The translations under genes were made by a program, and so were the position numbers. A DNA stretch of 20,311 bases from Synergistaceae bacterium (GTDB taxonomy: Bacteria > Synergistota > Synergistia > Synergistales > Aminobacteriaceae): assembly GCA_017427625.1 (NCBI GenBank), contig JAFRSL010000023.1, positions 1-20,311 on the forward strand, given 5' to 3'. The notes below the pieces were generated by a model. That model worked only from the letters and a program-made list of their open reading frames with translations. It did not search any database and was not told the origin of the DNA. Positions within the stretch are counted from its first letter, which is position 1. The number at the start of each line of letters is the position of its first letter. Shown piece by piece: positions 60 through 20,311 of this stretch.

Positions 60-1514
60 CTAGAAAAAATCTGATACGTACAATTTCCCGACTCCTTGCA
101 CAAATCCTTCATGCTGTGTATTACTGAATGCAAGCACCGCCGCATCTGCCCTGTCCGGCGAATGTCCTAAACGCTTTTTCATATCCTCTTTGCTCTCTAT
201 CTGGATTGCTCCACGTGCGTCTACCTTGTATTTCACTGAAGCTAATTCACTCAGCAACTCGTCATCAGGCGGTAATACTATCGGGTCTTTCTCTGGGTCT
301 AGCAGTTCTCGGAAGTTGTACCACAATTCAGCTCTCAGATTGTGATACCTTTCGGGGTCTGAAGCTCTCTCTGCAACATTCACGCCGACACGGTAAAATC
401 CGTCTTCCTCTAGGCTGTCAACAACACCACGCCCAATACCGATTTCATCAACCGCGATTTTCCTTGTGTCGTTCTCGCTCGCGTGAAGTCTTACAAGTCC
501 GGCTGTCTCTCTCGTATTCTTCTGCGTGTATACGTTTAATGCTGTTATTTTCTGGCCTTTGCGGACTGCTATCACCGTTTTGTCGCTCCCATATGCTGCC
601 ACGTCAACACCTAACTGTACTGGCTCGCCTTCGGGTGTTTCTTCCCATCGTTCCATCGCAAGCTCAATCCACAACAGCGGAATTAACGTATCTTCACCCT
701 GCTGCGGAAAGTTACCCATTACACGCACTTGATACGGTGCTGATTGTTCGCCCCATGCTTTATAGCGGTCTGATACCCATTGAGGCGTTATCAGTCTCGG
801 ATACGGTATTCCCTGTGCTTTGTCCTGCCACGTGTCATTCGCTATATCTTCAGGTGTTATTCCGTAAGCTGTGAAGTTAGGCGTGTCGAATGCACTCACG
901 TGAAATGTCTTGTATCCTATATTCTTTGTGAATGCGTCATAAAACGGTGTTCCGATTGCTGTCGGGTTACCTATCAGCAATAAACGCGCTCCTGAACTCG
1001 TCAATATACCTTCGATTGCCTCGTATATCTCCAAATTCACGCCCGCTGCCTCATCGACTATCACCAATATATGCTCTTCATGAAATCCCTGAAACCTGTC
1101 AGGCTCATTCGTTGATAGTCCGGCTGCGTACCACTCATCATGTATCAGGTGTAATTCTGGTGTCTTAGGCAACAAGTTACCGCCCAAAGGAACAACTGAC
1201 TCACGATATGCGCTCCGTATTTCCTTCCAGATTAATTTCTCCACTTGTCGCCATGTCGGAGCTGTTGACAGCACAATCGCTTTAGGCCGTGTATATAGAA
1301 ACCACAGAATACACATTGCTGCTGTGAACGTCTTGCCTATTCCATGACATGAGCGCACAGCCGTCCTCATGTTATCCCGAACTGAACGCAGTATTTCAGC
1401 CTGTAACGGCCAAAGATGTTTATTCAGTATCTTTTCTGTGAAATATGAAGGGTCTTGAAGTTTCTCTATGAAATGCGCTTTAATCGCTTTGGCTTTCTGT
1501 GCTTTCGGGGGCAT
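60..1514 (-). CDS. terL: Phage terminase large subunit (TerL)
   Basis: This 484-residue protein is the motor and nuclease that packages phage DNA into the prohead. The N-terminal ATPase has a Walker A motif SCHGIGKT (about residues 55-62) and a Walker B motif with catalytic acids VIVDEA (Asp154-Glu155). The C-terminal RNase H-fold nuclease shows LGVDVAAYGSDKT (Asp304), IAVDEIG (Asp355) and HSPDRADA (Asp454, Asp457), the expected spread of metal-binding aspartates. Length is normal for the family. The ATG at 1514 lies inside the TerS gene (35-base overlap), the classic TerS-TerL arrangement, implying translational coupling. Both domains look intact. Confidence 0.95.
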   Translation of the reverse strand: MPPKAQKAKAIKAHFIEKLQDPSYFTEKILNKHLWPLQAEILRSVRDNMRTAVRSCHGIGKTFTAAMCILWFLYTRPKAIVLSTAPTWRQVEKLIWKEIRSAYRESVVPLGGNLLPKTPELHLIHDEWYAAGLSTNEPDRFQGFHEEHILVIVDEAAGVNLEIYEAIEGILTSSGARLLLIGNPTAIGTPFYDAFTKNIGYKTFHVSAFDTPNFTAYGITPEDIANDTWQDKAQGIPYPRLITPQWVSDRYKAWGEQSAPYQVRVMGNFPQQGEDTLIPLLWIELAMERWEETPEGEPVQLGVDVAAYGSDKTVIAVRKGQKITALNVYTQKNTRETAGLVRLHASENDTRKIAVDEIGIGRGVVDSLEEDGFYRVGVNVAERASDPERYHNLRAELWYNFRELLDPEKDPIVLPPDDELLSELASVKYKVDARGAIQIESKEDMKKRLGHSPDRADAAVLAFSNTQHEGFVQGVGKLYVSDFF

Positions 1515-1980
1515 TGCTGAACTCCTGCATCATTAATTCGGCGAGTGTGTTCACTTTCAGGCTTCCTTGCAGTTCGACTTTCTGGCGGTTCACGTCTTGG
1601 AAGTCATCAGGCATTCGGTTTTTCGCTAAGAATATTTGTGTGGTCGTTGACGGCGGGATATACCGTTTCTTCACTATCCTGTCGTAGCTTTTAGGTTGTT
1701 TATCTTTATCAAGGTGAATTACTGTTACTTCCTCTTCTACAAAATAACCTTCAGCGGATTTTTTCATTACCTTCACTAAATCCACATTGGAAGCCGATTT
1801 ACCCCTTTTTATCGCGTCCGAGAAGTCGCTGTACTTATTCTGCCAGCTGTAATACGTTGCCCTATTTATTCCTAGCTTAGCCGCTATTTGGTCATCCGTC
1901 AAAAGCTCCTTTGCATAACCTTCTGCTAGTGCAGGTGTCGTCAATGGGTCATATTTGCTCTTACGTCCAGTTCTTGACAT
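1480..1980 (-). CDS. terS: Terminase small subunit (TerS-like)
   Basis: This 166-residue protein precedes and overlaps TerL by 35 bases. Residues about 20-50 form a helix-turn-helix (LTDDQIAAKLGINRATYYSW), typical of small terminase subunits that recognise the packaging site. The middle and C-terminal parts (LAKNRMPDDFQDVNRQKVEL) match the oligomerisation and TerL-contact region often seen in HTH-type TerS proteins. The ATG at 1980 follows two in-frame stops (TGATGA), so no upstream start is possible. A ribosome binding site AAAGGAGC lies rather far upstream (about 16 bases). The identification rests on the HTH and position; no cos or pac site was recognised. Confidence 0.85.
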   Translation of the reverse strand: MSRTGRKSKYDPLTTPALAEGYAKELLTDDQIAAKLGINRATYYSWQNKYSDFSDAIKRGKSASNVDLVKVMKKSAEGYFVEEEVTVIHLDKDKQPKSYDRIVKKRYIPPSTTTQIFLAKNRMPDDFQDVNRQKVELQGSLKVNTLAELMMQEFSNAPESTESQSD

Positions 1981-2010: not shown

Positions 2011-2688
2011 TCATTTAGCACGTGTCCAGCCTTCTCCGCTTTTTACCCAGAATGACTCGTTTAATTCTCTTCCTCGCTTAGACATTGGAGTTCCCAACAA
2101 TCTTTGTATATTCGCTTCCATTTCGCGGTTCACCTGTGCTTTCTCTGAATTGTTCAGCACACGGTTTCCCCATTTATCCGCCATATCAAAGTTAGAAAAT
2201 CCATTGCTCCGTGAAGATAGTGCTAACTCTACCGCAGGACGCTTCTTGTATATCGCATGTTTTATCGCCCCGCGCCTTGCTGATTCGCTTGCATTTCTGC
2301 TAGGTAATGTTACTGTGTAAGGACTTTCAGCTTCAGCCATGTTGTAATTGAAAACCACGTCTACTGTACGGCTTCCTTGTGGTGTTACAGTATAGTCATT
2401 CAATATTCCCGGCGGATTTGGATACAGCCTGTCAAATTCTTCATAAAATCTTTCATTAGCTTCACGGCTTCCGGCTTCTATTCCTTGTGGAACTTCTCCG
2501 CGTTTTGCCATCTCTTTTAACTGCGAAATTCCATCTGAATTTGAAAGGTTTAATACGGTGCTTGTTACCTCTGTTGTTTGCGCTCCTGAAGCTGTAGCTT
2601 TCGGAGTTTCTGCACCGCCACCGCGTTTTATTCCGCTTGCGCCTCCGTTCGTCTGGTAAAACGGGTGCAATCTCATACTAAATATCAT
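2011..2688 (-). CDS. Hypothetical phage protein, late operon
   Basis: This 225-residue protein is not recognised. It starts with ATG in a 4-base ATGA overlap with the stop of the ParB-DUF4417 gene, so the two are probably translated as a coupled pair. The first 45 residues are rich in Gly, Ala, Thr and Ser (low complexity, probably disordered). Residues about 85-160 look like a folded alpha/beta segment, and the C-terminal third is charged and helical. No signal peptide, membrane segment or metal motif is visible. Its position between ParB-DUF4417 and TerS suggests a late or packaging-associated accessory role, but that is inference from context only. Confidence 0.7.
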   Translation of the reverse strand: MIFSMRLHPFYQTNGGASGIKRGGGAETPKATASGAQTTEVTSTVLNLSNSDGISQLKEMAKRGEVPQGIEAGSREANERFYEEFDRLYPNPPGILNDYTVTPQGSRTVDVVFNYNMAEAESPYTVTLPSRNASESARRGAIKHAIYKKRPAVELALSSRSNGFSNFDMADKWGNRVLNNSEKAQVNREMEANIQRLLGTPMSKRGRELNESFWVKSGEGWTRAK

Positions 2689-3746
2689 GTTTCTCTCGCA
2701 AATCTCCCCGAAGGCTTAAATTTTTTCACTGGAATATTTCCGAAGTCATATCCTATTTTTGCACCGTAACAAATTACACATTCAGGATTCAGCCTCCTTA
2801 TCGCCTCGTCCATTCCTGAAAACCATAAATTCCGCGCTATCGGGTCTTCGACAATGCCAACCGTTCCAACCGCATAAACACCGCCGGGCTCTATACCATC
2901 AAAGCAAAATTTATGTGTCTCTTTTTCTACCCAGCCTAATGTCGGAATTACCTGCAATCCTGCGTCCTGCATCATTTGTCCTATGAGGCGCATTCTATAC
3001 ATGTTCCAAATTTTCATCGCCATTGGCATATCACGATATATCGAAAATCCCGGTGTTAGCACACATGAAAAATCGCGCAGTCTCTCTATATTCTCAAACG
3101 GATTAGTCCATATTCGCTCAAACTGGTAATCATCAAGGTAGAAATGCACTCCTAATCCTTCTTGGCTGCCTTTCCAGCTTTTGACGTAGTTAAAGCCTAT
3201 CAGGTCTTCAGGCACGTAATGGCAAGCCTTCAGCGTTGGAAACTGGTAATATCCGGCTGTGCGCGACTCGTCATATTCATACAGACGGTAAAAGTCATAA
3301 GTTCTTTCGCGCTCATCTCCGAAATAACCGCCGTCATCTTCATTATTATCTTTGAGCAGTTTATCTATCTCGCCTAAGTCAAAGCCTGTCAGCGTTAAAT
3401 CTATGTCTTCGTTCTGCAAATCTTCTAGAAGTGCGCTGAGTTTCTCATCGTCCCAGCCGTTGCTAATCTTGTTCAGCGCGATATTTAGTGCTTTCTCCTG
3501 TGCTTCTGGAATGTCCACTACAACGCAGTCAATCTCGGTTTCGCCTAGCTCATTAAGCACCTTCAAACGCTGGTGTCCACCTACAACATGGCCAGTTTGC
3601 GCGTTCCAGATTATCGGCTCTACGTATCCGAACTCCTCTAGTGAACGTTTCAGCTTCTCATACTCGGAATCGCCGGGCTGTATGTCCTTACGCGGATTGT
3701 ATGGTGCAGGAATTAATTCTGATATTGCCTTGCGGACTATGTTCAT
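2685..3746 (-). CDS. ParB/sulfiredoxin-like domain fused to DUF4417
   Basis: This 353-residue protein has two parts. Residues 1 to about 95 are a ParB N-terminal-like domain, with the signatures AP(Y)NPRK, GYVEPIIWN and the nucleotide-binding GGHQR (56-60), followed by a helical segment ending LTGFDLGEIDKLL. In phage proteins this exact architecture normally leads into an adenine methyltransferase. Here it leads, after an acidic linker (NNEDDGG), into residues about 150-340 that resemble DUF4417, with TPGFSIYRDMPMAMKIWNMY, a central WVEKETHKFCFDGI and a late CVICYGAK. DUF4417 has no established activity. The ATG at 3746 has a GGCGGTGA ribosome binding site. It is the first gene after a putative late promoter and leader terminator. 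DNA binding or nucleotide hydrolysis by the ParB part is plausible but not shown. Confidence 0.85.
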   Translation of the reverse strand: MNIVRKAISELIPAPYNPRKDIQPGDSEYEKLKRSLEEFGYVEPIIWNAQTGHVVGGHQRLKVLNELGETEIDCVVVDIPEAQEKALNIALNKISNGWDDEKLSALLEDLQNEDIDLTLTGFDLGEIDKLLKDNNEDDGGYFGDERERTYDFYRLYEYDESRTAGYYQFPTLKACHYVPEDLIGFNYVKSWKGSQEGLGVHFYLDDYQFERIWTNPFENIERLRDFSCVLTPGFSIYRDMPMAMKIWNMYRMRLIGQMMQDAGLQVIPTLGWVEKETHKFCFDGIEPGGVYAVGTVGIVEDPIARNLWFSGMDEAIRRLNPECVICYGAKIGYDFGNIPVKKFKPSGRFARET

Positions 3747-3760
3747 TTTCTCACCGCCTT

Positions 3761-3794
3761 AAAAAAGCAAAACACTCCCGTTTTACCGAGAGTG
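3761..3794 (-). terminator. Rho-independent terminator in leader of late genes
   Basis: Read on the minus strand, an 8-base-pair stem CACTCTCG / CGGGAGTG (3794-3787 with 3780-3773, one G-U pair) with a 6-base loop is followed directly by TTTTGCTTTTTT (3772-3761). It lies only 15 bases upstream of the ParB-DUF4417 start and downstream of a putative -10 element, so it either ends readthrough from the upstream regulator gene or acts as a leader terminator that must be overcome for late expression. Confidence 0.75.
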
Positions 3795-3835: not shown

Positions 3836-3899
3836 GAGTTATTTGCGTAAAAAATCACGGTATAAGGATAACACCGCATATCCTCAAAAAGTGCGCTAA
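3831..3899 (+). CDS. Possible 22-residue plus-strand ORF (doubtful)
   Basis: A plus-strand AAAAAGGAG ribosome-binding-like site (3813-3821) is followed 9 bases later by TTG and 22 codons ending in TAA next to the 11-base array. The encoded peptide is short and basic (starts MKSYLRKKSRYKD). It lies antisense to the late leader, where the same A-rich bases read as the T-rich promoter spacer on the other strand. No plus-strand promoter is evident. It could be a chance match; it is recorded because of the good spacing. Confidence 0.15.
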   Translation: MKSYLRKKSRYKDNTAYPQKVR

Positions 3900-3967
3900 A
3901 AGTGCAAGATTTGTACCGTTTTTGTGCAAGATTTGTGCAGCGAAAACACCTTCAAAGTGCAAGATAC
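3891..3967. repeat. Seven-unit array with exact 11-base period (GTGC-AT-rich)
   Basis: Seven consecutive 11-base units start at 3891, 3902, 3913, 3924, 3935, 3946 and 3957. Units 2, 4 and 7 are close copies of GTGCAAGATTT (units 2 and 4 identical). Units 1 and 5 keep GTGC and end in an A run, unit 3 is GTACCGTTTTT, and unit 6 (ACACCTTCAAA) has the weakest match. The A/T tracts therefore recur once per helical turn. The array overlaps the last codons of the ArpU-like gene and lies upstream of the late promoter, so it is well placed to be a cooperative operator for that regulator or a curved activating region. It has no CRISPR-like spacers. Confidence 0.75.
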
Positions 3968-4401
3968 ACTATCGTTACACTCACCAATGAACGCCGTCTG
4001 CTATAAAATGTCCGCCGTGAGATTTTCAGCTCCTCCATTATCGCTTCGGGCGTATTTCCTCCGAAGTACATCAACCGCAGTATATCCATCAATGCCTCGT
4101 TATTTGAGCCGTTCAGAACATTGGAACTCGTCAAATCTCCTATCAGCATTGTTATCGGCTCGGTATAACGCTCCAATGTTCGTATACGCTCATGCAGATT
4201 ATCTATCTTGATTTGACGCGACTCTATTGGATTTGAAGGTTCGCCTGTGAAGCCGAACGAGTATTGATAATTCTGCGCGTGTACGTCCGTTCCGGCTTCC
4301 TCCACTCGCAAATCATCTCGAAGCACCTTCAGGCACGCCATGTTCCGTTTGTAATCGTAAAGGCACTTTTCCGCGTATCTGAATTTATCCTTTTCCTTCA
4401 T
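3952..4401 (-). CDS. ArpU/RinA-like late transcription regulator
   Basis: This 149-residue protein has the layout of small phage late regulators of the ArpU/RinA/LmaC type: a basic, helical N-terminus (KFRYAEKCLYDYKR), a central helical segment (NLHERIRTLERYTEPI) and a C-terminal sigma-region-4-like helix-turn-helix (TPEAIMEELKISRRTFYSRRR, about residues 115-135). Such proteins switch on packaging and structural genes and usually sit just before terS, as here. The last residues (VSVTIVYLAL) are unusual because they are encoded within the start of the 11-base array. The ATG at 4401 follows AGAGGTGA at a slightly long distance. It is the likely ligand of the adjacent array, by inference. Confidence 0.6.
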   Translation of the reverse strand: MKEKDKFRYAEKCLYDYKRNMACLKVLRDDLRVEEAGTDVHAQNYQYSFGFTGEPSNPIESRQIKIDNLHERIRTLERYTEPITMLIGDLTSSNVLNGSNNEALMDILRLMYFGGNTPEAIMEELKISRRTFYSRRRSLVSVTIVYLAL

Positions 4402-4426
4402 TCTGAGTGAATCACCTCTCAGGGAG

Positions 4427-4693
4427 TTAGGGCAAAAGTCGTTTTTTACTTCTGCCCTAAAAAAATTCGCTTATTGCAAGGTTTCAGCTCAAAAAATCAT
4501 AGGGGCACTTACTTTTCACTTATCCCCTATATATTTGCAATTTTACCTTCTGACCTTTTCAGCATTTTTCATTTTCCCCTATTTTGTTTCTCTACTTCTG
4601 CCCCTTTGCCCCTAAATGAAATAAAAGCAGAAACAGAAAGGATTCAGAGAAGGCAAAAGTAGGGTCAAAATAGGTGCAGATAGGTGCAAAAGT
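4427..4693. repeat. Iteron-like cluster, consensus AGGGGCAnAAGT, both strands
   Basis: Copies or near copies of AGGG(G)CA(A/G)AAGT are seen on the plus strand at 4429-4439, 4501-4511, 4651-4660, 4661-4671, 4672-4681 and 4682-4693. On the minus strand they are at 4458-4448, 4528-4511 (looser), 4605-4594 and 4613-4605. The first two face each other and form a 13-base stem with one mismatch (4427-4439 with 4448-4460). 4499-4505 and 4524-4530 form ATAGGGG/CCCCTAT. The last four plus-strand copies are tandem with a 10-11 base period. Iterons of this kind bind initiator or regulator proteins in phages and plasmids. No protein partner is identified. Confidence 0.6.
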
Positions 4694-4781
4694 CATCTCA
4701 TCTTCCTTCTGCGTAATTTCTGCAAATTTGGCTTAAAATCAGTCGCTATAATTCTTTACAAGTTTGCAGAGTTTATCTACG

Positions 4782-4848
4782 TATTATCAGCAAATTTCAT
4801 TTTCGAGACCTCCGACCTGTGATAATTTAGAGGGGTCTGCTGATAATA
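4782..4848. repeat. 11-base perfect inverted repeat TATTATCAGCA flanking 45 bases
   Basis: TATTATCAGCA (4782-4792) and TGCTGATAATA (4838-4848) are exact reverse complements. Inside them AGACC and GGTCT (about 4806-4810 and 4834-4838) can extend the pairing imperfectly. The right arm ends one base before the stop codon of the gene at 4850-5128. No T run follows on either strand, so it is not a standard terminator. It could be a protein-binding site, part of an origin, or an RNA 3'-end structure of the replication operon. Confidence 0.5.
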
Positions 4849-4849
4849 C

Positions 4850-12044: not shown

Positions 12045-12202
12045 AGCCTATTCTCCCATTCCACACTTCTATTGCCTCTTCTTTGATACCGTAATTAGTT
12101 ATGAAAGCGAAAACATTTAACATGCCACATTCCGCTTCTGTCTATGACAAAATCCACTGCGTGGCTATTACATTGCGGGCAGGTTTTTAGTTCCTCAGTC
12201 AT
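12034..12202 (-). pseudogene. Frameshifted Lar-family (restriction alleviation-like) gene
   Basis: ATG at 12202 begins MTEELKTCPQCNSHAVDF and continues to SGMWHVKCFRFHN, then stops at 12095. One base later, in another frame, the sequence reads NYGIKEEAIEVWNGR and runs to a TAG at 12034. EAI..WN is the normal end of Lar-family proteins, and the CPxC start is their normal beginning, so a single extra base near 12097 splits one gene. The second cysteine pair is also damaged (CFRF instead of CxxC). An intact Lar-like gene exists at 16010-16198. Lar proteins of phage reduce host type I restriction. A 35-residue truncated product could still be made; ribosomal frameshifting is less likely because no slippery run is seen. 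Confidence 0.65.
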
Positions 12203-12809
12203 GGCCGTTCTCCCTGTACACGCAATCTTCCAGCAAATAGCGGTATTCTTCTGGAATTGCCTCATACAATGAATACGCAAGGGAGCGAAATTCCTTGAGT
12301 GCGGCTGGACTGGTTCGGAGCTTCAGTATGTGTCTCAACTCTCGTATGTTGGACGTGAGAATGAGATTAGTCGGCCAGAACTCCGGCAGAAAATATTTCA
12401 GCTCATCATCGGATAATGCAGGATAATTTTCTGCTAACGTTATGAAATGCTCCGCCTCAGCATATTTCAGGCTATCTATACTGCCGAATTTGGAGCTGTA
12501 CGGAAAATGCTTCTCAATAAACTCCCTTGTCGCATTCTTTGTGAGCGTGTGCCGCGTGCTTTCCACTGACCGCGATATATGCCTGTGCCGTGCGAGTTCC
12601 TGCAAACATGCACGCGATAGTCCCTTCACGCTATAGGTTAGCGTTATGTGTTCAAGCGTTGTCTCATGTTCCGCCTTGATTGCGCGGGTTAAGACTTCTT
12701 TCGGCTCAAACTCCTTGTCTGCGTTCGCGTGACAGGTTAGGTGTCCGATTGCTGCGTTTCTCTCCATTATCCCGATATATTCAGGAGGCGTTAATAATTT
12801 CACTTCCAA
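12195..12809 (-). CDS. thyX: Flavin-dependent thymidylate synthase ThyX
   Basis: ThyX makes dTMP from dUMP with methylene-tetrahydrofolate, FAD and NADPH, feeding phage DNA synthesis. The signature RHRHISRSVESTR (residues 74-86) fits the ThyX RHRxxSxxxxSxR motif. EHITLTYSVKGLSRA before it and NIRELRHILKLRTSPAA after it are further conserved ThyX blocks. I place the start at TTG 12809, which has AAAGGAG exactly 8 bases upstream; a longer frame from 12863 has no properly spaced site. The product is then 204 residues, a normal ThyX size. A structured leader with a duplicate of its ribosome binding site lies just upstream. The gene overlaps the decayed Lar gene by 8 bases. Confidence 0.93.
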   Translation of the reverse strand: MEVKLLTPPEYIGIMERNAAIGHLTCHANADKEFEPKEVLTRAIKAEHETTLEHITLTYSVKGLSRACLQELARHRHISRSVESTRHTLTKNATREFIEKHFPYSSKFGSIDSLKYAEAEHFITLAENYPALSDDELKYFLPEFWPTNLILTSNIRELRHILKLRTSPAALKEFRSLAYSLYEAIPEEYRYLLEDCVYRENGHD

Positions 12810-12815
12810 GATATT

Positions 12816-12917
12816 ATCTCCTTTCTTTCTTGCTCCCATGCTGAATGGCAAGTGCAAATTCAAAAATATAAAAAGGGAATCTCCTTTCTTGAGATTTTTT
12901 CTTCCTTACCATTCAGC
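12816..12917 (-). promoter_or_regulatory. Structured thyX leader with decoy ribosome binding site
   Basis: On the minus strand GCTGAATGGTAAG (12917-12905) pairs with CTTGCCATTCAGC (12852-12840) over 13 bases with one G-U pair; on the plus strand that pair would be an A-C mismatch, so the minus-strand RNA is favoured. Inside, AATCTC (12896-12891) pairs with GAGATT (12883-12878). The 12 bases AAGAAAGGAGAT at 12890-12879 recur exactly at 12827-12816, where they are the thyX ribosome binding site. AATCTC could therefore pair with either copy, which is the layout of a translational switch. No known riboswitch family is recognised. Confidence 0.5.
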
Positions 12918-13359: not shown

Positions 13360-14106
13360 TTATCTCATTAACTCAGTAAATACGTGAAGAATATTGCTGT
13401 CCCATTTCAGCTGTCTTACGGGCGTTCCGTGATTATGTTTCTTGCCTACGTCCTGCATCACCGCGTAAGGTTCTCCGGGCGGTAACGCTTCCCATCTGCC
13501 GTTGATTTTGTGCTGATAACCTGCTCCGGCTAGGATTTCGTTCACTCTCTGCGCTTTCAGTCCGAAATGTGTACCGATTTCTGTCGGCGTTAGTATCTGC
13601 TTTTTCGTAGGTGCGGTTAGTGCTATTTCTCCGGCCTGTAATGCGCTCTGGCCTGTGAACTTTCGGTATACCTTATCGAGTGCTAGCGCAAGCTGATTAT
13701 CTTTCACTCCGGCTACTTCAAAGATTATCTTCGCTCCGTCTATTGCTCCTTGCGGGATTGCTGGATTGTCTTTGAATACACTGTAGCTTCCTGTTCGCCG
13801 GATTTGTGGCAAAACTTCATGACGCACCCACCGCGAAAACTGTTTGGCTTCTGGCTTGCGACTCTTAAATACGAGCGCATAAACTCCGGCCTCATTAACC
13901 ACCGTCATATCCTGCATTCCGCCGGGGGTGTAAACTTTGCTTACACCCTTTTCATCTTCGTCAAGTTCCTCAACCGCCATGCGTGAGTTGCTGTGTTCCA
14001 GAATGTCGCAAACATCTTTTGCTACAAACCATATTTCTCCGTCAATTTCTGTCGTTCGGACTTGATGTTCTTTGTAGCTAAATACCTGTAATGCGTTTTC
14101 ACTCAT
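13360..14106 (-). CDS. BRO-N antirepressor-like protein with HTH C-terminus
   Basis: This 248-residue protein begins with a BRO-N domain: YKEHQVRTTEIDGEIWFVAKDVCDILEHSN, then TPGGMQDMTVVNEAGVYALVFKSRK and FSRWVRHEVLPQIRRTGSY (to about residue 110). BRO-N proteins of phage antagonise repressors or bind DNA during the lytic switch. The C-terminal part contains an HTH-like LTPTEIGTHFGLKAQRVNEILAGAG followed by KINGRWEALP and ends with a histidine-rich HNHGTPVRQLKW, unlike the KilAC end of its paralogues here. The ATG at 14106 follows AAAGGAGATT. A 550-base gap separates it from thyX, so it is probably the last gene of its transcription unit or a site of leader control. Confidence 0.85.
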   Translation of the reverse strand: MSENALQVFSYKEHQVRTTEIDGEIWFVAKDVCDILEHSNSRMAVEELDEDEKGVSKVYTPGGMQDMTVVNEAGVYALVFKSRKPEAKQFSRWVRHEVLPQIRRTGSYSVFKDNPAIPQGAIDGAKIIFEVAGVKDNQLALALDKVYRKFTGQSALQAGEIALTAPTKKQILTPTEIGTHFGLKAQRVNEILAGAGYQHKINGRWEALPPGEPYAVMQDVGKKHNHGTPVRQLKWDSNILHVFTELMR

Positions 14107-17762: not shown

Positions 17763-18020
17763 TAAATTTTGTTCTCTACGTAAATTGGCTCGGAACGTTA
17801 CAACTGCGCTCTGAGGACTTAAAGCAAAATCAAAATCAACTCCGCATATCTGGAAACCGTGATTTAGCTGGCTATTTAAGCATTCTATGAATAGATTTAT
17901 ATCTTCACGGCTTCCTCCTGATATGTTCCTTAGTCCTATATTGCAGTTCCTTTGACTGATTATCGCTTCAAGTTCTTTCCTTTGCTTGTAATCAAGATTA
18001 GCGGGGTCGATATATATCAC
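17748..18020 (-). CDS. Hypothetical small protein after BRO-KilAC
   Basis: This 90-residue protein is not recognised. It starts in an ATGA overlap with the BRO-KilAC gene and reads MIYIDPANLDYKQRKELEAI, with a helix-rich N-terminal half and a beta-like ICGVDFDFALSPQSAVVTFR toward the end; the tail LPLLL is encoded in the inverted repeat that covers the next gene's leader. It has only two cysteines and no metal or membrane motif. Tight coupling to an antirepressor suggests a partner role in the switch, without direct evidence. Confidence 0.6.
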   Translation of the reverse strand: MIYIDPANLDYKQRKELEAIISQRNCNIGLRNISGGSREDINLFIECLNSQLNHGFQICGVDFDFALSPQSAVVTFRANLRREQNLPLLL

Positions 18021-18793
18021 TCTAGATTGCCTTTCAGAAAACGATTCACAAAGTAGATTTGCCCTTTGCCTGTTACTTTGGTCGTCCTCACTATTCGCGT
18101 TGTCCCGTCTGGATTATTGATTACGCGGGTTTTCACCTCAAACAGTCCACGCTCTATGCTGTCCTGTGTAGGCATATTCCAACGTTCGCCTTTGCATTTG
18201 ATGAGGAAACCGTTCTCTCTCAGCCATTCAAACAAACGGTTCTGGCCGATTTCGACACCGTTCTGCCGTAGGACTTTTGCGAGATTGCCTATCAGGATTG
18301 ATTCTTTGCTCGTATTTACTGCCTCAGCAAATATCAATTTCGGCTTGTCCTCTTCAATTTTCGCTTCTAGTGACTCGCGCTTTTCCCGTTCAGCCTTGTA
18401 CGCTTGTAGCACCTGAATAAATGCGTCGGGATTGCTGAGTATATCCTCAACCTTCGCGGGCGTTGCGTACATTCCGTGCTTCCTGATGGACGGCACTACG
18501 TCTCCGGCTATCCACATCTGATACGGCAGTGCTTTCTTTTTGTCCGAACGTCCCAGAAAGAAATACACGCCGTTTTCTGTCAGGCAAAGCATTTCCTGAT
18601 AACCGCCGGGGGTATTAATCCGTTTAATACCCTTCCAGACTTCTGGCACATGCGCAACTATGTTGGGCTGCCAGTATGAATACTCCAATGCCTCTGCTAC
18701 GTCCTTTGCCACAAACCATATTTCGCCGTTGTCTTCGATTGTGCGAACTTGGAACTCTTCATTGCTGAATATTTGTATCGCGCTCTCTTTCAT
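18017..18793 (-). CDS. Phage antirepressor, BRO-N plus KilAC domains
   Basis: This 258-residue protein has a BRO-N domain (NEEFQVRTIEDNGEIWFVAKDV...; TPGGYQEMLCLTENGVYFFLGRS; MWIAGDVVPSIRKHGMY) to about residue 110. A helical linker (AYKAEREKRESLEAKI) follows, then a KilAC/ANT domain with LAKVLRQNGVEIGQNRLFEWLR, LIKCKGERWNMPTQDSIERGLFEV and GKGQIYFVNRFL. This is the standard architecture of phage antirepressors that inactivate CI-type repressors. The ATG at 18793 has AAGGAG upstream. It diverges from the KTSC gene, so the 93 bases between them should hold promoters for both directions. Confidence 0.9.
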   Translation of the reverse strand: MKESAIQIFSNEEFQVRTIEDNGEIWFVAKDVAEALEYSYWQPNIVAHVPEVWKGIKRINTPGGYQEMLCLTENGVYFFLGRSDKKKALPYQMWIAGDVVPSIRKHGMYATPAKVEDILSNPDAFIQVLQAYKAEREKRESLEAKIEEDKPKLIFAEAVNTSKESILIGNLAKVLRQNGVEIGQNRLFEWLRENGFLIKCKGERWNMPTQDSIERGLFEVKTRVINNPDGTTRIVRTTKVTGKGQIYFVNRFLKGNLE

Positions 18794-19530: not shown

Positions 19531-20311
19531 TTACTCCGTTTCGCCCTGTGCTGTCTCCATCAGCATTAACAGCGGGTAATTCTCATGGGCTAACATATTC
19601 GTCAAATTCATCAATCCTTGCGGTGTTATCAGCGTTATTGCGTAAAATCCTCCGCTCACTTCTAGATTGAACAGCCCGCGCTCGATTGCTCGCTGAGTCG
19701 GCTTGTTGTACTGCCGTCCACGTCTCGAACAAAGCAATCCCTTTTCTCTGCAATACCGAAACAAACGATTCTGGCCTATCGGTATTCCGTGCTGTGCTAA
19801 GAATTGCGCTCCACTCTGAAACGTTACGCTTCCCTTCTGCGACAAAACTGCTAATCCCAGATTCGCAAAAGGGCGTGAACTGTCAAGCTCCTTCCGTAAT
19901 CCGCGCACTTCCGACTGTGAATCCGCGTAAAGTTTCAATACTCGCTCGAACGCTTCAGGGTCTTTCTTCAATGCCACAAGCGTTTTGTCTGTCAGGTACA
20001 TTCCATATTTGTGAATCTGCGGCAATACTTCATGCGTAACCCACCGTGTAAAATCTTTAGCCTCTGTTTTTCGGCTCTTGAATATCAGTTTGTATACGCC
20101 GGGTTCACTCACAAGATTCAAGAACTGTGCGCCTCCACGCTGGCCGGAATGACTGTAACTATTAGTTACGGTCATTTTTTCATCGTCATCAAGCGCACTT
20201 ACAGCTTTTCGGGCATTGTTTAAGCCCAGAATGTCGCATACGTCTTTCGCAACAAACCAGACTCCGCCGTCTTGTTCTACTGTGCGTACCTGCTGCCCGT
20301 TGTAGCTGAAC
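19531..20311 (-). CDS. BRO-N plus KilAC-like antirepressor (5' end cut by window)
   Basis: The frame runs open to the window edge, so the start is outside; an internal ATG at 20175 is not the start because conserved BRO-N sequence lies before it (FSYNGQQVRTVEQDGGVWFV, then AKDVCDILGLNNARKAV). The BRO-N part continues with SEPGVYKLIFKSRKTEAKDF and WVTHEVLPQIHKYGMYL. A linker leads to a KilAC-like end: QSGAQFLAQHGIPIGQNRLF, RYCREKGLLCSRRGRQYNKP, TQRAIERGLFNL and a final ITPQGLMNLTNML. It is the third BRO-N protein here and closest in its C-terminus to the one at 18017-18793. About 260 residues are visible; perhaps ten are missing. Confidence 0.88.
   Translation of the reverse strand, partial: FSYNGQQVRTVEQDGGVWFVAKDVCDILGLNNARKAVSALDDDEKMTVTNSYSHSGQRGGAQFLNLVSEPGVYKLIFKSRKTEAKDFTRWVTHEVLPQIHKYGMYLTDKTLVALKKDPEAFERVLKLYADSQSEVRGLRKELDSSRPFANLGLAVLSQKGSVTFQSGAQFLAQHGIPIGQNRLFRYCREKGLLCSRRGRQYNKPTQRAIERGLFNLEVSGGFYAITLITPQGLMNLTNMLAHENYPLLMLMETAQGETE

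Follow-up and report, generated by a model that had tools for sequence, protein, structure and literature searches.

The window analyzed here, a 20,311-nt stretch of DNA from a Synergistaceae bacterium (GenBank assembly GCA_017427625.1, the whole of contig JAFRSL010000023.1), carries a late module encoded entirely on the minus strand. Its genes follow in the order primase (7520-5115), a small open reading frame, a 149-aa late regulator of RinA/ArpU-like type (3952..4401), an array of 11-bp direct repeats (3886..3962), a gene with ParB_N-like and DUF4417 family matches (2685..3746), a gene without a family match (2688-2011), the terminase small subunit gene terS (1480..1980; phrog_309, E 4.4e-29) and the terminase large subunit gene terL (60..1514; phrog_2, E 9.8e-46). 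Between the array and the first late gene lie a predicted extended −10 element, TGTTATCCT (3865..3873), and a predicted intrinsic terminator (3761..3794). What the sequences show directly is an array with a set period and a set distance to the −10-like element, which related phages have kept under altered hexamers; sequence comparison indicates that the array is very probably the operator of a phage late promoter, bound by the adjacent regulator and switching on the packaging genes.

The array consists of seven units, each a hexamer with a 5-bp linker. Read on the minus strand from the promoter-proximal to the outermost unit, the hexamers are GCGCAC (3891-3896), TTGCAC (3902-3907), CGGTAC (3913-3918), TTGCAC (3924-3929), CTGCAC (3935-3940), the degenerate AGGTGT (3946-3951) and TTGCAC (3957-3962). 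An earlier note on this DNA had framed the same array as 3891-3967, and the hexamer coordinates bear out its description of seven 11-base units without an indel. The copies of GTGCAAGAT that it placed at 3902, 3924 and 3957, at spacings of 22 and 33 bp, are the only ones free of mismatches. The AT tracts are in helical phase, as also described there; 30 of 35 linker positions are A or T, and 25 of 42 hexamer positions are G or C. GTGC, said to recur in the units, is present in five of the seven as that note read them, the others being one GTAC and the degenerate unit. The array does adjoin the late regulator and precede the predicted late promoter, as claimed, although genes, array and promoter are actually on the minus strand. 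Self-identity at period 11 across the seven units was 0.485, the window maximum for this period, and none of 100 length-matched Markov-1 sequences came up to it (largest value, 0.468). Tandem Repeats Finder reported the array in part only (3902-3939, period 11). The pattern TGCAC-N6-TGCAC has a single occurrence in the 1.9-Mb host assembly, which is the array itself.

The promoter-proximal hexamer ends 20 bp upstream of the −10 hexamer TATCCT, and the extended −10 is found at the same place in relatives. When 12 promoters, selected after inspection, were aligned on their predicted −10 elements, the mean autocorrelation peaked at lags 11, 22, 33 and 44 (z 20.6, 17.7, 9.7 and 6.8), and the repeated words shared one register, set by a 20-bp gap between the end of the proximal hexamer and the −10 hexamer. 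At least one copy of TGnTAnnnT was present in 20 of 23 loci inspected. The gap between hexamer and −10 is 19 bp in three relatives (loci L179, L184 and L029) and about 21 bp in phages phi11, A118 and TP901-1. In L011 the array begins ~160 bp beyond the stop codon of the regulator gene, yet the 20-bp gap to the −10 is kept; the position of the array is tied to the promoter and not to the gene end. The −10 region itself (3856-3878) forms a rough inverted repeat that was listed as terminator-like, and several relatives have TTATACCATG directly after the −10.

This geometry also bears on whether the array could instead be a packaging or partition site for TerS or the downstream ParB-like protein. 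Its location upstream of ParB-like, TerS and TerL genes would fit such a site, and a ring-shaped protein would be well served by contacts in helical phase. However, the gene after the promoter varies among relatives (ParB/DUF4417, TerS-like or ParB-methylase) while the array stays, and the distance from array to −10 is kept even far from the regulator gene. Because the array persists when the next gene changes, we reject a packaging or partition site as highly improbable.

Homologues of the regulator were detected in 31 of 149 related genomes and in 32 of 185 genomes of the phylum. Periods of 6 to 25 were tested in 43 deduplicated regulator loci, from 70 nt before to 320 nt after the stop codon. 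Period 11 exceeded all 200 shuffles in 14 of the 43 (L001, L002, L004, L006-L011, L016, L174, L175, L179 and L182, of which L002 and L004 are near-identical) and ranked first in 13. Twice eleven was the leading period in L004, L010 and L175, with z of at least 7, and L014 and L180 showed the same preference weakly. Under this common period the repeated hexamer is spelled differently from phage to phage: TTGCAC in the window, TGGCAC/TGGCAA in L006, GTGCAC/CGGCAC in L007, TGGCGA and TGGCGG in L008 and L174, TGGCGT in L009 and L175, TTGCGC in L004, TGAGAC in L011, TTACCC in L014, CGGCCT in L016 and a weak word in L010. One clade of related regulators (L013, L015, L018, L020-L023 and L176) is without an array, and the sequence downstream of these genes is unlike phage late regions. 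Among 23 loci of terL relatives, L066 and L067 alone had an 11-bp array, and the regulator too was detected in no others; these two are the L006 and L007 phages again.

Within any one locus, the GC-rich hexamers are better kept than the linkers, which are variable. An array that merely bends DNA, with its phased AT tracts serving as a polymerase upstream element without a dedicated protein, would account for the A/T-rich linkers and their helical phase, yet it would leave the better-kept hexamers unexplained, and on this ground we reject pure curvature. The bending explanation, which we rate marginally below a packaging site, also conflicts with phi13, whose late promoter is dead after deletion of its repeats and needs the regulator Ltr as well, according to PMC13123087.

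Units are gained or lost between near-identical phages. L002 and L004 have only two mismatches over 450 bases of the gene, while one of their arrays carries a single, exact 11-bp insertion, and L304 and L306, of the TP901-1 type, are likewise one 11-bp insertion apart. A neutral tandem repeat born of slippage would produce such changes, but it is the least probable explanation of all, as period, place and −10 distance are common to promoters with different unit sequences, and this shared frame with different words leads us to reject slippage alone.

The outermost unit (3952..3962) also comprises the last codons and the stop codon of the regulator gene, so that the stop codon lies in the 11-bp register. 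The same register was found in all five regulators ending in Tyr-Leu/Met-Ala (window, L008, L174, L009 and L175) and in none of six with a Tyr-Leu-Gly end (L004, L006, L007, L010, L011 and L014; Fisher p 0.002 for end type versus register), although L008/L174 and L009/L175 are close kin and the five therefore represent fewer than five events. In these five phages, the register of the stop codon means that a single unit is, on the predicted role of the array, operator and coding sequence at once. Ala replaces Gly in the C-terminal Tyr-Leu-Gly of the regulators where the unit overlaps the last codons. All nine further relatives examined end in YLAL.

In staphylococcal RinA loci (L191-L270), one protein type is accompanied by TGGCAG words (56/56) and another by TGACAG (22/22), a natural specificity pair. 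For Firmicutes, 60 loci were returned and 37 taken (L384 was excluded for an internal stop, and 22 others because they appeared to be sigma factors or partial hits), of which 36 remained after L386 was dropped for a frame problem. At least three units at lag 11 were present in five of these 36 loci, compared to at most one locus at any other lag. The excess of two-unit arrays at lag 11 was small (16/36, versus 14/36 in the upstream control and 9/36 in shuffles), which counts against a broad claim; two-unit arrays by themselves are therefore no evidence.

The regulator of the window matched phrog_36 (E 3.3e-15), the same PHROG into which phi11 RinA falls (1.9e-38), and profile comparison with a RinA/ArpU alignment gave a probability of 95 (E 3.8e-8). 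As judged by these matches, the protein is a late regulator of RinA/ArpU type, this type being taken broadly to cover phrog_36 and the Ltr superfamily. The earlier label of ArpU-like holds in this broad sense, with the qualification that the PHROG of RinA fits better than that of ArpU. NCBIfam returned no match at E 0.1, including TIGR01636 (RinA) and TIGR01637 (ArpU), and the regulator is thus filed under neither family proper. The predicted fold is a coiled-coil hairpin followed by a C-terminal helix-turn-helix (HTH) (pLDDT 86.5), and the HTH is tentatively predicted to be sigma-region-4-like. A sequence search of the PDB gave nothing relevant up to E 1. Receiver and winged-helix domains of the PhoB/OmpR type were not found, Pfam giving only a sub-threshold match to DUF1492, and neither Pfam nor PHROGs gave a hit to a Q antiterminator family at E 0.01. 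No match was obtained by tblastn against 50,697 phage records, while scans of viral contigs with the single protein or the alignment as query retrieved the identical three contigs. In nine genomes behind the terL relatives, the ArpU model matched in one.

In phages of Gram-positive hosts, packaging is under the control of late regulators of the RinA/ArpU class (PMC13123087). In the mechanism that we propose, copies of the regulator would bind the seven units side by side and head to tail, roughly along a single face of the helix. Because the proximal unit ends 20 bp before the extended −10, at about the place of a −35, the last copy would sit at about −38 to −33, where its predicted sigma-region-4-like HTH could make up for the lack of a −35 contact and bring in RNA polymerase. 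The outer copies would stabilize the last one and raise occupancy, and the bound array would turn on the packaging genes from an extended −10 promoter without a −35. Changes in the hexamer tend to go with changes in the recognition helix, which suggests that each phage may have its own regulator-operator pair inside the same frame. The earlier idea of an activator site is retained in the form of a probable operator array before a predicted late promoter. Comparison with related phages, which the same note had proposed, found the 11-bp phase kept rather than wholly absent, though 29 of the 43 loci lack a clear array.

Several observations weigh against the operator interpretation or narrow its reach. 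In those 29 related loci, period 11 did not exceed all shuffles, and L181 favors period 12 (z 6.0) over 11 (z 3.4). The −10 elements are predicted and, like the 12 aligned promoters, were selected after inspection; TGnTAnnnT was absent from three of the 23 loci inspected (L017, L181 and L035), and L010 and L016 have a weak hexamer at the unit nearest the promoter. One of the seven window units (3946-3951) is degenerate, and Foldseek gave no significant PDB match for the regulator (best E 0.93). The link between helix and hexamer is confounded by kinship, and L004 violates a simple rule. The phi13 repeats are 18 bp long, so a period of 11 bp is not universal. The sample of relatives is small and was partly chosen by eye.

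The predicted terminator in the late leader (3761..3794, minus strand) consists of a hairpin, CACTCTCG-GTAAAA-CGGGAGTG, and a T-rich tail, TTTTGCTTTTTT. A sense-strand leader terminator was found at 9 of 20 promoters of a first set and at 7 of 9 further Firmicute promoters, giving 16 of 29 promoters (window, L006, L007, L008, L011, L014, L016, L091, L374, L383, L387, L393, L398, L401, L404 and L419). The 29 were chosen for a recognizable promoter and are non-independent, L387 being closely related to L393, and the −10 of L419 was placed about two bases off. The background was 2 of 29 on the antisense strand, 20 of 608 windows taken elsewhere in the loci of the first set, most of them coding, and 1 of 200 shuffled leaders. 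A looser first scan had found terminators in 10 of 19 leaders, with partly different loci (L179, L184 and L029 in place of L007). Nine distinct RinA-type leaders comprised seven with a terminator and two without. The leader of phi13, whose start site was mapped by its authors (PMC13123087), has a terminator as well, and in TP901-1 candidates were located only 400-470 nt downstream.

In phage lambda, the order is regulator gene (Q), late promoter (pR'), leader terminator (tR') and late genes. The gene order here is alike, which suggests that the regulator may act as an antiterminator at the leader terminator. The window and the 16/29 set share with the lambda system the leader terminator after the late promoter, whereas the regulator, unlike that of lambda, matches no Q family. 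We consider it probable that the hairpin is instead the end of early transcripts or a 5' stabilizer of the mRNA, with the regulator activating initiation only. Such roles agree with a hairpin that often stops just before the ribosome site of the first late gene, and with leaders in which the scan found none (A118, L009, L004 and others); less easily reconciled with them are L387, L393 and L011, which already have an additional terminator between regulator gene and promoter. The most far-reaching proposal, by which the RinA/ArpU-type proteins would make up a second class of antiterminators that load at the promoter as Q does, is improbable. In this proposal, a row of sigma-region-4-like proteins on the 11-bp-phased array would load onto polymerase at a late promoter lacking a −35 and take it past the leader terminator, with the operator re-spelled together with the recognition helix in a frozen 11-bp frame. 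The leader terminators make antitermination, a possible second function, directly testable.

In the wider setting, the seven closest of 23 TerL relatives are from Synergistaceae, Synergistales or Fretibacterium metagenome-assembled genomes, six of them from ruminants, which makes a rumen Synergistaceae the probable host. Upstream of the regulator gene, ~450 bp (4402-4849) are without a minus-strand gene, and the top period-24 self-identity of the window lies near 4532. Three Bro-N genes (13360-14106, 18017-18793 and 19531-20310), two with an antirepressor (ANT) domain, and a ThyX-type thymidylate synthase gene (Thy1; 12195-12863) are on the minus strand, and Rfam gave no match in the window.

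Among known systems, PhoB, which replaces the −35 when bound to the Pho box, is alike in outline of working only, being an unrelated response regulator without a phage late promoter. The Pho box comprises two 11-bp direct repeats (PMC3978041). The terS promoter of Staphylococcus phage phi11, controlled by RinA of the same PHROG as the window's regulator, has a pair of TGGCAG words ahead of the −10 at an 11-bp spacing, but differs in having two units instead of seven, a gap of 21 bp and a regulator that TIGR01636 does match. Listeria phage A118 similarly has two TGGCAC words 11 bp apart and then an extended −10, while its gp66, an LlgA-type ArpU regulator, belongs to the ArpU family proper (TIGR01637), and a leader terminator was not found. 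In Staphylococcus aureus phage phi13, the late promoter is reported to require direct repeats that stand where the late-regulator gene ends (PMC13123087); promoter P23 shares the leader terminator with the window, and differs in its 18-bp repeats and an Ltr of family IV. Lactococcus phage TP901-1 has the order regulator gene, direct repeats, late promoter and terS, and the same source describes binding of Alt to four imperfect repeats located between −76 and −32. The best repeat period in the TP901-1 sequence is 11, although Alt belongs to phrog_2198/DUF722 and is only weakly phrog_36-like, the units number four and the gap to the −10 is ~21 bp. The earlier note knew of no such operator form for ArpU or RinA; direct-repeat operators for this class are in fact already known from TP901-1 Alt and phi13 Ltr (PMC13123087). 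In the openly licensed literature, which is no proof of absence from print, we found no paper on the 11-bp rule, on re-spelling of the operator between phages or on antitermination by RinA/ArpU regulators. Compared to these systems, what is notable here is the fixed geometry within which the operator is re-spelled from phage to phage. The relatives form a promoter set, with operator word and recognition helix varying, from which the rule of specificity could be worked out and private pairs of regulator and promoter developed.
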